NCBI GenBank assembly: GCA_937139365.1
Contig: CAKZPT010000084.1
Coordinates: 1 to 38,961 of the forward strand
Source: an uncultured bacterium
Lineage (GTDB): Bacteria > Verrucomicrobiota > Kiritimatiellia > PWTM01
DNA: 38,961 nt
Reading direction: 5' to 3'
A program made the translations under genes and the position numbers. The notes below the pieces were generated by a model. It saw only the letters and a list, made by a program, of their open reading frames with translations. It was not told the origin of the DNA and did not search any database. Positions 7,368 to 28,942 of the stretch are shown one piece after another (position 1 is the first letter of the stretch; each line of letters starts with the position of its first letter).

Positions 7368-9952
7368 GTGACGGGGATCCTTCTCCTCACCGCCCTGGCC
7401 GTGGCGGGGACGGCCGCCTCTGACCTTGCGCCGGAGGCCCGCCCTTGGGCCTACCACTGGTGGCCCGGCAGCGCCGTGGACGAGACCAACCTCGCCCGGC
7501 GCCTCCGGGAATTCCGCGACGGCGGCTTCGGCGGCGTTCACGTCGTCCCCATCTACGGCGTGCGCGGCGCCGAGGCGCGCGATGTGCCGTACCTTTCGCC
7601 GCGGTGGCTCGAGCTGTTCGCGTTCACAGTTCGCCAGGCCCGCGCCCTCGGCCTCGGCGTGGACCTGACCGTCGGAACCGGCTGGTGTTTCGGCGGTCCG
7701 CCGGTGACCGAGGACCTCGGCGGCCAGGCATGGGAGGTGAGGGATGGTCGCCTCCACACGCGGCCGACCCGGTTGCGGGTGAAACGCGCCGCTCCTGGCG
7801 GAGAAGGGTACATGACCAATCCATATTCGCCGCGCTCGATGCGCGTGTGGCTGGACTGGTGGTTCGAGCGGTTCCAGCCTCCCGCCGACGCGCGGCCGCG
7901 GGCGGTCTACCACGACTCCTACGAGTACTTCGGTTGCACTTGGTCGCCCGAATTGCGCGGGTTCTGGATCAAGCGGCACGGCAACGACCCCCTCGAGGAA
8001 CTGGACGCGCTTGCGGGACGCGGGCCCGTGGACCGGCGCGCCCCCGTCGCCGCGGATTAGCGCTCGGCGTTGTCCGACATTGCGATCGAATGCGTTGTAG
8101 AGCTCCAAATCGCTGACAGCCGTCGGTGCGGCTTCCTCACCCGGCTGCAGGCCCATGGCGCGGCGGCCAACCTGCTTGACCTCTACGCGCTGGCGGACAT
8201 TGCGGAGACCGAGATGTTTGGCCGCGGCGACCGCGATCCGCTGGCCTCGGGATTCGACGAACGGTTTGGCGAGGGCGACCGCGACCCGATCGTATCGAAG
8301 TTTGCCTCGTCGGCTGCCCACCTCGCCGGCCGCCCCCTGATCGCCGCCAAGACGGGCACGTGGATGGCCGAGCACTTCTGCGAGACGTTGGAAGAACTGA
8401 AGTGCCTCGCCGACCTCCTGTTCGCCGCGGGCGTCGACTACGTCATCTACCATGGTTCCGTGTACTCGCCGGACGACGCCGCATGGCCGGGCTGGCTGTT
8501 CTACGCCTCCTCACAACTCCATCCGCGCAATCCGCTCTGGCGGGAGATCCGGACGCTCAACGACTCGATCGCGTGCGTGCAGTCGGCGCTCCGCGCCGGC
8601 CGGCCGGACCACGATCTCCTGGTCTACTGGCCGATGCACGACCTTTGGATGACGCCGCCGCCGGCAGGCAAACCGGCCGCGCCGATCGCCTGCGCCGTCC
8701 ACCATCCCGCCTGGCTGCGCGGGCAGCCGGTGGGCCGCTCCGCCGCTGGACTTTGGCGGCGCGGAGTGGCCTTCGATTTTGTGTCCGATCGCCTCCTCGA
8801 GCGCCTCGAGGTCGGAGCGGACGGGTCGCTTCGCACGCCCGAGGGCGTCGGGTGGCGCGCGGTCTGGGTGCCGCCCTGCGCGACGATGCCCGAAACGACC
8901 CTGGCCCGGCTGGCCGACCTCGGCGAGCGCGGGGCGGCGATCCTCTGGGAGGACCGGCTGCCGGAGGACGTGCCGGGCTGGGGTCGTCTCGACGAACGCC
9001 GCGCCCGCCTGCGCGAGGCCCGTGGCCGCGCCGAGGCCCGGTTGCGCGCGTCCGGTTCCCGTTGCGCCGTCGGCGGTGCCGACGGGCTGCTGGCCCTCGC
9101 CGGCTGCGCCCGCCGTCGCACGGCCCCGGCGACGGCCTGTTGGTCGTCCGCCGACGCTTGGACCACGGACGACTCGTCTGGCTTGCATGGCAGGGGGCCC
9201 GGACGTTCGACGCCGACTACGAGTTCGAGGGAACGGAACGCACCGCGGAACTGATCGATCCGCTCACCGGCGAAACCGGCCGGGTCCCGCTGGCCGCGCC
9301 CTCCGACCGGCGGCGCGCGTTACGGCTGGTGCTCGAGCCGGGCCAATCCGTTCTCATGCGACTGGTCGACGACCTCGATGGCCTGCCCGAGTGGCGTTGG
9401 CGGCGTCTGGGGGAGATCGCTCAACGGCTCGACAGCGAATGGCGGGTCGAGTTTCTTGAGGGCGGTCCTGCGCGCCCTGCGTCGTTCCACACCCGCCGTC
9501 TCGAATCCTGGGCGCACCGCGGCGACGTCGCGGCTGAGGCGTTTTCCGGCACGGCTTGCTACCGGATCGAGTTCGACGTTCAACCCTTGGAAACACAGAG
9601 CCGAACGGTTTCCAATCCTTGGACGGAACGCGAATGGCTGTTGGACCTTGGCGACGTGCGGCACGTCGCGCGCGCCCGCCTGAACGGCCGGGATCTGGGC
9701 GCCCGCGTCCAGCGGCCATACCGGTGGACGATCCCCGCGGGCCTGTTGCGGGCGGCCGGCAACCGGCTGGAGGTCGAGGTGACGAACCTGGCCGCCAACC
9801 GCATCCGCGACCTCGACCGGCGCGGCGTGCAATGGCGGATTTTCCACGACATCAATTTCGTGAACATCCGTTACCGGCCGTTCGACGCCTCCGGCTGGCC
9901 GACGATGCCGTCGGGCCTGCTGGGCCCGGCCGCGATCGTCGGGACAAGATAG
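7368..9952 (+). pseudogene. GH106-type alpha-L-rhamnosidase-like glycosidase with in-frame TAG and frameshift
   Basis: About 860 codons of an exported glycosidase. From GTG 7368 it has a signal peptide (MTGILLLTALAVAGTAA) and the GH106-like start ARPWAYHWWPGSAVDETNL, then GLGVDLTVGTGWCFGGPP and YHDSYEYFGCTWSPE. The frame stops at TAG 8058-8060 but continues in the same frame with RSALSD, then LTRLQAHGAAANLLDLYALAD and HGSVYSPDDAAWPGW. Related enzymes read DYR where this has D-stop-R, so TAC to TAG is the likely change. Near 9095-9125 the frame shifts by one lost base; the rest encodes LIDPLTGETG and a galactose-binding-like beta-sandwich (WLLDLGDVRHVARARLNGRDLG). A palindromic element is read in frame at 9583-9623. 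The gene is probably inactive unless the TAG is read through and the shift is an error. The family call is by motif memory. Confidence 0.8.
9583..9623. repeat. Palindromic TTGGAAAC/GTTTCCAA mini-element inside a coding frame
   Basis: TTGGAAAC (9587-9594) and GTTTCCAA (9608-9615) form a perfect eight-pair inverted repeat, flanked by CCTTGG and TCCTTGG. The 14 bases at 9610-9623 are identical to 27394-27407 in the intergenic element at 27361-27409. It is translated as QPLETQSRTVSNPW between the strands of the C-terminal beta-sandwich of the glycosidase, where no such loop is expected. Confidence 0.65.
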
Positions 9953-23772: not shown

Positions 23773-26700
23773 ATGAGTGCCTGCCTGTGGGCCGTCGCCT
23801 TTGCCGTCGCGCCATGGCCCGCCGACCTCTGCCGTCGCCGATCCCGTCGGGCTTCCGGCCGGCCCCCTCGCCGGCGCGGATGCCGTCGGACTCCGAGTGG
23901 CTGACGCCGCGGGGCTCGAACTGCTGTACGACCTTCGGACCTTTGATGGCCGCCCCTGCCGGTCGGGCCGGGTCGAATCCGGCGACCGCCTGTTTGTGCC
24001 GGCGAGCGTGGGTCCAGGGGAGGCCACCAGGCTGTGGGTCTATCTCGACAATCCGCGGCCGGCGTCTGTGACGGACTTTCTCTGCGTCCCTTTCCGCAAC
24101 GGCGGTGTCGAGGGGGGAGGTACGCGACCGAAGCGTGGACGGCCGCGGAGACGGACGCCCTCCACCGGGCGTCGTGGGTGACGGGGACGGGACGTGGCGG
24201 CGGAAAGGCGTTGCAGGTCGGGGTCGCCCCCGGCGCTCCGCACCGCTGGGCGCAATGGCGGCCGGAGGGCATCCCCGTTGCGGTCGGCCAAACCTACGAG
24301 CTAGCCGGGTGGGTCCGCACGGAGGGCCTGCATGGCAGCGCCGGCTGGTTCATCCACCTCCATGACGAGGCCGGCGCGATGGTTCTAAACCGGCATGTGA
24401 CGATGGACGACGCCGATCGCGACTGGACCCGTCTGGCGCTGTCCTTCACTGCACCTACGGGCGCTGTGAGGGCGACCGTGGGAACGTTCCTGCGAGGTGA
24501 GGGAAAAGTCCGGTATGACGACGCCGAATGGCGCATCATCTCTGGCCTCCCCGAAGTGCGGGTGGCCTACGGAGGGGAGGAGGGGCGCGAGATTCCGCCC
24601 TTCGCGCCACCTCGAAGCGACCTGCGGCCCGGGGGGAAGGTGACCGCCCGTGTGCGCATGGTGCGGACCGCTCCCGCAGAGCGGTCCACGCTGGCGGTAG
24701 CCGACCTGCGGCCCGCCGGCGGCCGGTGGTTGGGTGGCAACCCGGCCGGACGGGCAAAGGTGTTCGACGCGGCCGGCCGGTCGAGGGGATTTTCCAGCTC
24801 CACGACATGGTGGCGATCCCCGCTCCGCCATCGGCCGGCTGGGTGAGCGAGTGGGACGTGGCACTGGAGGACGGCCCCGCGGAGACGGGCGGGACCCTAG
24901 GAATGCCCGGCGGCGTGAACCTCGCCCCGCCGTTGCTGACTGTAGGAGGCGGCTGGCGGTTCGTCGGTGACGCGGCGGCCTGCGGGGCTCGCGAGATTCG
25001 AGATGGGCGGGAAATGCATCTCGAATTCACGATTCCAGGCAGCATGTCCAACAGATGGATCGGATGGGTTTCCCAGCCGTTGCCCATCCAAGCTGGACGG
25101 CGGTATCTCTTTGGGGGGCGCATCCGCGCCGCAGGCGAAGCGGATGGGGCCGCAATTCATGCCCACCTCCACGGCCGGACATGGCCGCCGCTCCAGTACC
25201 TTGCCACCCGCCCGGCTGGCACGGGCGGGTGGACCGTCACCGCGACCACGTTCCTTGCGCCCTCTGGGGCCGTCTCGATGACGGTGCACCTGACCGCCAA
25301 CCGCCCGGGCCGGTTCGCGCACGCCGACGTCCTGGTTGCCGAAGTCGAGGCGGCGGTGGTCACGACGCTCGCCGTCCCGGACTGCCGTCCCGTGCGCGGC
25401 CTTCGCGTATGGACCGCGAATCCGCTCGTCAAGGTGTTTCGCGACGATCCGCCCCCGGCGGCCGCCGCCGGGGCGTTGACGGCGCGCTGTGTACGAGGGG
25501 AGGCAGAGAGCCTGCAGATCGTCGCTTCCGTCGGCGGGCGGCCGCGAAAAGTGCGCGTAAGCGCCGAGCCGTTAAGCGGACCGTCCGGCGGTCCCGCGCC
25601 GGTGGTCGAGGTGCGCTGTGTCGGGTACGTGCCGGTGGATCATCCGACCGCCTACTACCGGGCCGAGCCGCTGCCCGGTGCCCGGCCGGTGCCGACGGGC
25701 GCCGGCGTCACCGACGGTTGGGCTGGCGACTGGCCGGATCCCCTGATTCCCTCCGCCGAGGCGGACGTCGCGGATGGGGAGAACCAGCCTTTTTGGCTGA
25801 CCGTGCGTGCCGGGCCGGACACCTTACCGGGATGGTACAGCGGCGGGATCGTCGTGGAGGCCGATGGGCAGCCGCCTGTGCGGCGGTTGCCGATGGCGGT
25901 CCGTGTCGAGGCGCTCCGACTGCCGCCGACTCCTTCCCTCAAGGTGCTGCTCGATCTGCGGACGGGGCCCGGCGGCGATTTCGGCTACGGCATCGGGGCG
26001 GCGGGAACGGAGGCGCGCCGCGCATGGCTGCGGTTTCTGGCCGAGCACCGAGTTGGCATTGACCGGATCCTGCCCGATCCGGTCTTCCAGCTTCAGGACG
26101 GGGCCGTTGCGATCGACGCCGCCGCGTACGAGGAGGAGGCGGCGTACTGTTTTGACCGGCTCTGCATGTCGGCTGCCTATACGCCGTCTGTTTTTTACAT
26201 GTTCGGCTGGGCCCACCGGCCGGCGGCCCGCTTCGGGTTGGAGCCGCTCACGCCGGACTACGAGGCCGCCATGAAGGGAGCCCTCCGGGCGTCTGCGGAT
26301 CGAATGCAGGTGCGGGGCTGGCACAACCGGTTTCTTCACTACATCTCCGACGAGCCGCATTTCGATCACGGGTTCGTCGTCCAGCAAATGATCCGGCTTT
26401 GCCGGATGTTTCACGATTCCGGCGCCGGCCTGCCGATCTATTCGAGCACATGGCGGCATTGTCCGGCGTGGGACGATGCCTTGGACGTGTGGGGCGTGGG
26501 GCAGTACGGTTGTTTTCAGGTGGAGGAAATGGAGCGTCTGTGCGCCCTCGGCCGTTAGGTCATGTTCACCTGCGATGGTCAGATGGCGATCGACACGCCC
26601 TACCTCGCCACAGAGCGACTGTTGCCGTATTACTGTTTCCGCTACGGTGCCATCGGATGGGAATTCGGGGGCGTGCCGTGGTGGACCTTCGATCCGTGGC

Positions 26701-27083
26701 GTTTCGGGTGGCACCCCTTCATCCGGCAAAGCGACGACGGGTCGCGCTACTACTGGATTCGCTATCCCAACGGCGACGGCTACCTAGCTTATCCGGGCAC
26801 GCCCTTTGGGATCGAGGGACCGATCGGCTCGATCCGCATGGAACAGGTACGAGAAGGTCTGGAAGACTACGAGTTATTGAAGATGGCCGGTCGACGGGCC
26901 GACGCCGCCGATGAATCCACGCCGTGTGGCCGGGCGTTGGCGGCGGCTCGAGCGTTGGTCTCCATTCCCAACAAAGGCGGGCTTCGGTCTCTTTCGATTC
27001 TTCCCGATCCATCGGAGGTGCAGCGAGTCCGAGAGTCCATTCTTGACATCCACGTTTCTGAAGACTCCATCGCTACGCAATGA
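23773..27083 (+). pseudogene. DUF4091-type exported glycosidase with three frameshifts and an in-frame TAG
   Basis: About 1,100 codons of one large exported protein spread over all three plus frames. It starts MSACLWAVAFAVAPWPADL (signal peptide, ATG 23773). It shifts near 23815-23835, runs to CVPFRNGGVEGG, and shifts again on a G6 run at 24112-24117. The next part is a carbohydrate-binding-like beta-sandwich (YELAGWVRTEGLHGSAGWF). It shifts a third time near 24770-24785 (GGCCGGCCGG). A second similar module (RRYLFGGRIRAAGEADG) and the catalytic half follow: YISDEPHFDHGF, DVWGVGQYGCFQVEEMERL. TAG at 26556-26558 interrupts the same frame, which continues VMFTCDGQMAIDTPY, then WWTFDPWRFGWHPF, YPGTPFGIEGPIGSIRMEQ and REGLEDYELLK, typical of the DUF4091 C-terminus. 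Four lesions make it inactive as it stands. Confidence 0.8.
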
Positions 27084-27360: not shown

Positions 27361-27409
27361 TTTCCAAGGATTGGAAGGTAGCAGTTCCGTAGGTTCCAAT
27401 CCTTGGAAA
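27361..27409. repeat. Perfect 16-bp inverted repeat (TTCCAA/TTGGAA element)
   Basis: Left arm TTTCCAAGGATTGGAA (27361-27376) and right arm TTCCAATCCTTGGAAA (27394-27409) are exact reverse complements with a 17-base loop; each arm is itself nearly palindromic. One reading frame through it gives FQGLEGSSSVGSNPW, the same length and pattern as QPLETQSRTVSNPW encoded by the element at 9583-9623. No T-run follows on either strand, so it is not a simple terminator. Confidence 0.75.
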
Positions 27410-27466: not shown

Positions 27467-28942
27467 TCAACTGCGTCTGGCGGCAGTAACGGAGACGACT
27501 CTGACCACACCGCGAAAACGACCGACGAGACGGACACGGACCTGTCTACCCCCGGCAGGGATTTCGGCCGTCTCCCGCGCGGCGATGCCCTCGCGACGGC
27601 GCACCGCCGGCTGCTTGTAGACGAAGGCCTCCCGCCATTCGTCTCGGCTGGCGCCGGAGATCAGCAGTGCGACCCCCAGCGCCAGATCGCCCTCGAAACC
27701 CGGCTCCCGGTCAAACACCGCTTCGAACTGAATCCGCTGGCCGGGCACCACATCGATCGGCGAGGAGATTAGCTCGACCGGGTCGGAGGCTGTGCGCGAC
27801 TCGATCCGGAACGCCGGAGACGGCCGCCCTCCGTCCTGCGCGGAGGGGGGCAGGGCCTTGACCGACTGCGAGTGACGGTCGCCATAACGCACCGTCCAGC
27901 CGTCGAACGGCGGCGGGCCGGGAGAGGGGACGGTCAACAGGTTGGCGTCGGACGGCGCGGCGCGTGCGGAGGCCCAGGGCTCCGAGGCGGCGCGCACCGT
28001 TTGGGCCCGCGCGCCATACCTCCACGCCCACCATCCGCCCGCGGCGGCCGCAGCCGCCAGCGCCGCGCCGAGCGCGGCCGCGACCGTCCGCCACCGGCGC
28101 GCGCGGCTGCGCAGATGCTCCACGTCCTCGATCTCCACCGCCCCCCATGCGCCCGCCTGCGGCGAGGACGGTGGCTGGAAGGAGACGACCTCGCGCAGCG
28201 GCCGCCGGCCGAGCAGCGGATCGGCCTGCAGAAACCCATAAGCGACTTCGGGCAGTCCGGCCGCCGCCACGGCCGCTCGGCAGGCATCCAGATCGAAGGA
28301 GACCCGGCGAAACACCACCGCCCCTGCGGCCTCGTCGTAGATCACGTAGGAGGCCCGCGGGTCGCCGTCCCGGGGGCACCCCACGGAGCCGACGTTCACG
28401 ATGTATCGCTTGCCCTCCTCCGTCGCAAAGTCCTGAGGGGGCACCTCCCGCGGCACCCCGCTGGACCCGAGAACATACAAAGCCGGTCGGTGCGTGTGCC
28501 CGACGAAGAGCAACGGCTCCGGCGCGGCCGTCCAGGCGGCCATCGCCGCCTCGGGCGAATCGAGGTAGGGAAACCGCGCCGGCTCCTCGGTGCTGGCGTG
28601 GGCGCAGCGGAACGTCCGGCCCGCCAACTGCAGCGGCCAGGTCGCCATCAGGCGCAGCGCGGCGCGCGACAGCCGTTTGCGAGTCCATTCGAGGATGGTC
28701 TGCGCATCCTGGTGGAAGCCCGAGGCGTCCATCCTGCCACAGAGCGCCGCGTCGTGGTTACCGAGGGCGACGCGCCAGACTTCGGCGTAGACCGATTCGA
28801 GCACCTCGGCAGGGTGGGGGCCGTAGCCGATGACGTCGCCGAGGCAGAGGATCCGGTCCGCCCCGCTGGCGGTCAGGTCGCGCAGGACCGCCCGCCAGGC
28901 GGGCAGGTTGGCGTGGAGGTCGGAAACGATCGCGTAGCGCAT
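27467..28942 (-). CDS. Metallophosphoesterase with membrane anchor and C-terminal beta domain
   Basis: A 491-residue protein. Residues 1-230 are a calcineurin-like phosphoesterase of the YfcE/MJ0936-like type: VSDLHANLPAW (Asp8, His10), GDVIGYG (Asp36), GNHDAAL (62-64) and VGHTHRP (148-153) supply the two-metal site, and VNVGSVGCPRDGDPRASYV is the usual family ending. A hydrophobic alanine-rich helix at about 285-307 (WRTVAAALGAALAAAAAAGGWWAW) follows, then a 180-residue tail with alternating beta strands (RIQFEAVFDREPGFEGDLALGVAL, GGRQVRVRLVGRFRGVVRVV). The enzyme half would face the cytoplasm and the tail the periplasm. Substrate unknown. GGAGG lies six bases before the ATG. It follows the polyamine genes by 45 bases and is probably the last gene of that unit. 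Confidence 0.87.
   Translation of the reverse strand: MRYAIVSDLHANLPAWRAVLRDLTASGADRILCLGDVIGYGPHPAEVLESVYAEVWRVALGNHDAALCGRMDASGFHQDAQTILEWTRKRLSRAALRLMATWPLQLAGRTFRCAHASTEEPARFPYLDSPEAAMAAWTAAPEPLLFVGHTHRPALYVLGSSGVPREVPPQDFATEEGKRYIVNVGSVGCPRDGDPRASYVIYDEAAGAVVFRRVSFDLDACRAAVAAAGLPEVAYGFLQADPLLGRRPLREVVSFQPPSSPQAGAWGAVEIEDVEHLRSRARRWRTVAAALGAALAAAAAAGGWWAWRYGARAQTVRAASEPWASARAAPSDANLLTVPSPGPPPFDGWTVRYGDRHSQSVKALPPSAQDGGRPSPAFRIESRTASDPVELISSPIDVVPGQRIQFEAVFDREPGFEGDLALGVALLISGASRDEWREAFVYKQPAVRRREGIAARETAEIPAGGRQVRVRLVGRFRGVVRVVSVTAARRS

Follow-up and report, generated by a model that had tools for sequence, protein, structure and literature searches.

Paired palindromes at a fixed 32-bp spacing in Kiritimatiellia, putative chromosomal sites for a sequence-specific DNA-binding protein

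The window, that is, the whole stretch of 38,961 nucleotides that was analysed, contains a gene for a GH106 alpha-L-rhamnosidase at positions 7380–9952 of the forward strand. Both upstream pieces of the gene match Pfam PF17132, and its segments map to the orthologue of G002. The gene is disrupted by an in-frame TAG at 8058–8060 and by a frameshift between about 9035 and 9112, and this disruption could be that of a true pseudogene or result from an error in the assembly; the orthologues of G001 and G002 are open, with 978 and 1037 codons, respectively. The initial annotation placed an inverted repeat at 9583–9623 within this gene and reported 14 bases identical to those of an intergenic element. 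Direct comparison has confirmed that 9610–9623 (TTCCAATCCTTGGA) is identical to 27394–27407, that the copy in the GH106 gene yields V-QPLETQSRTVSNPW-T in the reading frame of the gene, and that the intergenic copy translates in one frame to FQGLEGSSSVGSNPW. The inverted repeat is real, but its description was incomplete, because it consists of two 15-bp palindromes whose starts are 32 bp apart. The full unit is a pair of 15-bp palindromes of the pattern TTCCAANNNTTGGAA with a start-to-start distance of exactly 32 bp and a total length of 47 bp, and the window carries two such pairs, 9578+9610 with three mismatches in all and 27362+27394 with no mismatch. When up to 2 mismatches are allowed, the window gives 4 matches to the pattern compared with 0.33 expected, and none of 100 shuffles reaches 4.

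In the GH106 copy, the first palindrome at 9578–9592 (GTTCAACCCTTGGAA) has 2 mismatches to TTCCAANNNTTGGAA and codes for V-Q-P-L-E, and GTCCAACCATGGGAA and CTCCAAGGCTTGGAA occupy these codons in the congeners. The second palindrome at 9610–9624 (TTCCAATCCTTGGAC) has 1 mismatch and codes for V-S-N-P-W-T. Since 32 is not divisible by 3, this second palindrome is read in a shifted frame. The 17-nt spacer at 9593–9609 is unconserved between species, its identity being 6/19 and 8/19 compared with 18/20 and 19/20 for the arms. The motif occupies the same codons in G001 and G002, the two congeners having the orthologue, indicating that the copy is not recent. The surrounding loop is 12 residues shorter in the homologue of G048 and 6 residues shorter in that of G013, both of which lack the motif, and 9 residues shorter in solved GH106 structures. 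As judged from these alignments, the copy may go back to an insertion, albeit an old one. Since the GH106 gene is broken in this genome, it does not demonstrate a tolerated peptide here. The GH106 orthologue of G013 (L114) has a different short repeat, AACATCGAACACCGAACATCCAACATCGAACATCGAA, in the same surface loop, where it replaces the paired palindrome.

The intergenic pair is formed by two perfect palindromes, TTCCAAGGATTGGAA at 27362–27376 and TTCCAATCCTTGGAA at 27394–27408, separated by a 17-nt spacer at 27377–27393. Its left neighbour, a GH123_cat match at 26562–27083 on the plus strand, and its right neighbour, a calcineurin-like phosphoesterase gene at 27467–28942 on the minus strand, both have their 3' ends facing the pair, an arrangement that places it between convergent genes. 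The reading frames at 24528–26558 and 26562–27083, the second being the GH123_cat match, are in the same frame with a single stop between them, and perhaps represent one interrupted gene.

Further copies, which the initial annotation proposed to look for in the genome and its relatives, were found in both. The genome (2.82 Mb, 117 contigs) contains 58 perfect single palindromes compared with 0 in the reversed-pattern control, and, when up to 3 mismatches are allowed, 73 pairs with the 32-bp spacing compared with 2 in the same control. All 50 of the perfect palindromes listed, out of the 58 in the genome, sit in a 32-bp pair, and one triplet also has a 31-bp step. Exact core pairs are present in 37 of 97 genomes, comprising this one and its relatives, at 1 to 1310 pairs each in what are apparently all draft or metagenome assemblies, and the control gives 0 matches. 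In a sample of the phylum, 33 of 388 genomes match, every one of them in the same class, and a stricter pattern gives 27 matches among 84,980 genomes, the matching records being titled Kiritimatiellae/Kiritimatiellia, 'Lentisphaerae', 'Verrucomicrobia' or uncultured bacterium. Thus, across the 97 genomes, the 388-genome phylum sample and the strict search of 84,980 genomes, no match outside the class Kiritimatiellia is known. Copy number varies from 0 to 91 pairs within one genus, in which G043 has 81 pairs, G080 has 91 and G062 has none; this genus offers a good contrast for finding a binding protein. No earlier description of the repeat was found in the literature searched, and the Pontiella genome paper mentions neither palindromes nor repeats.

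Class-wide, the distance between neighbouring palindromes is 32 bp (59 times) or 31 bp (18 times) and rarely 22, 63, 105 or 116 bp, and these spacings come near to whole numbers of helical turns of 10.5 bp. The core TCCAANNNTTGGA is common to all lineages, and the extended consensus and the preferred centre triplets are lineage-specific. In this genome, the spacer and flanks are unconserved between copies. The first and last bases of the palindrome (positions 1 and 15) vary independently of each other, with 65 complementary combinations compared with 64.6 expected, and in this genome RR/YY centre triplets are as frequent as RY/YR. The absence of covariation between the arm ends indicates that conservation does not act on base pairing and that there is no conserved hairpin. 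Longer arrays also occur. L037 of G086 has six palindromes at 1158–1308 with spacings of 22, 31, 32, 30 and 22 bp, which include two-turn steps, and a four-unit array at 7698–7805 of L270 (G029) overlaps the start of a predicted hypE-like gene, whose protein would begin with MTFPTIGK from the array.

The surroundings were read for about 50 sites of the 73 pairs in the genome. According to approximate gene calls from a rough home-made caller, 13 of 50 sites (about 26%) lie in or overlap genes compared with a coding density of about 86%. Intergenic sites occur in tandem, divergent and convergent gaps alike, the convergent and divergent gaps used being 6 and 7 in this genome, 13 and 7 in G080, and 7 and 7 in G089. 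The sites are therefore indifferent to gene orientation and have no promoter preference, and placement at promoters only was rejected because sites are about as frequent in convergent as in divergent gaps and some lie deep in genes. A common pathway among the neighbouring genes was looked for, and none was found. The coding copies in L042, L043, L048, L053, L080 and at position 9578 of the window are mostly in the frame giving [FV]QxL[ED]...S[NK]xW[KT], and other frames are rarer in genes.

The arms are conserved and the centre and spacer drift, both in coding and in non-coding DNA. When orthologues were collected by protein homology alone from site-bearing genomes, 18–20 of the 20 arm bases were kept, and the identity was 32–84% in the spacer and 65–75% in the flank. 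In hemW, the Leu codon of the motif is always TTG, which makes up 11% of the Leu codons here, and 5 of 6 genomes have CAA as the Gln codon, CAA making up 19% of the Gln codons here. In non-coding DNA, the arms are kept and the spacer is lost in the footprint before queF between G043 and G080 and in the footprint before pyrE between this genome and G002, these and similar neighbour names being our reading of the sequences. Seven sites of G002, read as those in hemW, GH106, GH127, L043, L053, L076 and L249, are at orthologous positions here compared with about 0.01 expected by chance; arm identity is biased for sites found by the pattern, and position is not. L064, L066 and L075 share neighbours with G002 sites at different positions, and were rejected as orthologous sites. 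Many intergenic sites are not common to the congeners.

The initial annotation regarded the coding copy as an inserted peptide that is tolerated by its host protein, in parallel with the Rickettsia palindromic elements (RPEs), and suggested a comparison of orthologues with and without the insert. Orthologues were fetched by protein homology and then aligned by codon, and the outcome differed between genes. The hemW motif is present in G000, G001, G002, G003, G005 and G006 and absent in G004, G007 and other members of the class, most of which have the same protein length; hemW was judged from class orthologues, since solved structures cover this site poorly. For the L074 gene, G000–G002 have the motif and G003 lacks it, at equal protein length. 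The GH127 copy aligns to solved structures with a difference of at most one residue. The unchanged length in hemW and L074 and the difference of at most one residue in GH127 indicate that these sites arose by substitution on native codons, and so the inserted-peptide view does not hold for them. Only the GH106 and L042 copies look insertion-like. L042 is about 19 residues longer than its homologues at the site, and this length difference suggests that its copy may be an insertion of about 19 residues.

The initial annotation also proposed a mobile family with TTCCAA/TTGGAA arms. The copies are indeed dispersed in and between genes, with the coding copies in frame, but in this genome different copies have unrelated spacers. 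Unit copying was seen elsewhere in the class. The numbers of near-identical spacer pairs are 29 in G080 and 14 in G089 compared with 8.9 and 1.2 by column shuffling, respectively, and none of 200 shuffles reaches either value. Since G080 and G089 have identical spacers next to unrelated flanks, copying of the unit occurs there. In the same shuffle test, the spacers of this genome and of G002 are no more alike than expected, suggesting that unit copying happened in another family of the class and left no trace here. The G080 copies share a 57-bp symmetric consensus and end in AAAA/TTTT, and the whole unit is nearly palindromic there. L305, L308 and L311 of G080 have flanks that are alike on both sides, a longer repeat carrying the unit in these cases.

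These observations lead to the hypothesis that the pairs are probably chromosomal sites, maintained by selection, for a putative sequence-specific DNA-binding protein of the class Kiritimatiellia. Each TTCCAANNNTTGGAA palindrome would be the size of one dimer footprint, and 32 bp would correspond to about three turns of B-DNA. Since the palindrome starts are about three helical turns apart, two dimers would be placed on the same face of the helix and could bind together. We infer the protein, the cooperative docking of the two dimers and the biological role from the layout and conservation of the sites. A chromosome-wide role, such as organisation, segregation or a global DNA-bound factor, is more likely than that of an ordinary promoter operator. 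In some lineages, as represented by G080 and G089, copying has also spread the whole 47–57 bp unit, and a pure binding-site model has no need of such a process. The range of 0 to 1310 copies within the class and of 0 to 91 within one genus, which is unusual for an essential architectural site, also argues against a binding-site model, as do the many intergenic sites that are not common to the congeners. No recurrent gene or regulator was found beside the long arrays, and the cognate protein was not found.

A different view would be that the pairs are a mobile palindromic mini-element of the MITE or REPIN type, 47–57 bp long and tolerated as an in-frame peptide, in which the arms are the ends needed by a transposition enzyme. 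The dispersal, the scarcity within genes relative to coding density, the near-identical spacers that G080 and G089 have beside unrelated flanks, the 57-bp G080 consensus, and the extra length of the GH106 and L042 proteins at the site are all consistent with such an element, but the hemW, L074 and GH127 sites are not insertions, this genome and G002 lack an excess of related spacers, and the arms outlast the decaying interior at fixed orthologous positions, which transposition alone would not maintain. Furthermore, Y1_Tnp gives 0 matches in G000–G003 and G005, genomes with 28–89 sites, and the presence of RAYT (Y1_Tnp) does not follow the site copy number over 97 genomes (Spearman rho 0.04). 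A RAYT/REPIN origin was rejected because of the absence of Y1_Tnp from this genus and the lack of this correlation, and the mini-element view as a whole appears rather unlikely. The pairing of palindromes on one helical face also recalls the operators by which a classical transcription regulator would control a large regulon. ArgR binds paired ARG boxes, which are two palindromes held at a fixed helical spacing and bound together. Some sites are located just upstream of genes read as pyrE, carA, serA, hisB, guaB or nadE, in agreement with operators. ArgR boxes are two turns apart and the palindromes here are three. However, sites are about equally frequent in convergent and divergent gaps and are found deep inside genes, and the neighbours are not restricted to one pathway, making large-regulon operators improbable. 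The AAAA/TTTT ends and near-palindromic unit of the G080 copies would suit palindromes that encode RNA hairpins or bidirectional terminators, but the arm ends do not covary, the spacer is non-palindromic in this genome, the stem would be only 5–6 bp, and copies lie inside intact genes such as hemW, so that this explanation is very improbable. A DNA uptake sequence was put aside, because this genome has few sites and they are always paired.

By number and spread, nucleoid-occlusion sites are the nearest analogue of the putative binding sites. There are about 70 Noc sites in B. subtilis and 24–52 SlmA sites in E. coli per chromosome (PMC4726725), i.e., tens of short palindromes scattered over the chromosome, compared with 73 pairs here, and SlmA binds as a dimer of dimers, to which the paired palindromes here bear a likeness. 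Unlike Noc and SlmA sites, the sites here are strictly doubled at 32 bp. Their spread in G080 is near-random, with a coefficient of variation of gaps (CV) of 0.89. Depletion near the terminus, a feature of Noc and SlmA sites, was not seen on G080 contig 1, where site density is about the mean at the skew flip near 600–665 kb, the terminus being placed from the skew at sampled loci. G000–G003, G005, G080 and G089 each have one ParB_N match and lack the second ParB that would be expected for Noc, and so a Noc-like ParB paralogue was rejected. REPINs and REP doublets also consist of two palindromes as a unit and occur in many copies mostly between genes (PMC3116915), and copying in G080 and G089 adds to this likeness. 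However, RAYT is absent from this genus and from G005 and uncorrelated with copy number, the copy interiors are unrelated here, and intragenic copies are conserved over species; moreover, the compensatory pairing of a single hairpin is not seen at the arm ends, and the copies are not essentially extragenic, given that 13 of 50 sites lie within genes or overlap them and that the hemW site is conserved in 6 genomes. RPEs are insertions of about 150 bp encoding a conserved peptide (PMC10969869). The pairs resemble them as palindromic repeats in frame within unrelated genes, but are 47 bp long here (with a 57-bp shared block in G080), have unrelated spacer residues, and add no peptide in hemW, L074 and GH127. 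Among the features of MITEs, unit copies at unrelated flanks are seen in G080 and G089, and neither target duplication nor an empty site was established.

It is conceivable, and we put this forward tentatively, that Kiritimatiellia have an as yet undescribed chromosome-wide DNA-binding system whose double sites are under selection strong enough for codons of conserved genes to be reshaped in place, and number more than 1000 in some lineages. If the binding-site hypothesis is right, the pairs would lead to a major chromosome-binding protein of a class that has been little studied, for which the 47-bp unit would serve as bait and give an exact handle. They would also be a clear case of a DNA-level signal that dictates amino acids and rare codons in conserved genes without insertion. 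Since such a signal would set the residues, FQxLE...SxxWK in Kiritimatiellia proteins need not be a domain or a mobile insert.
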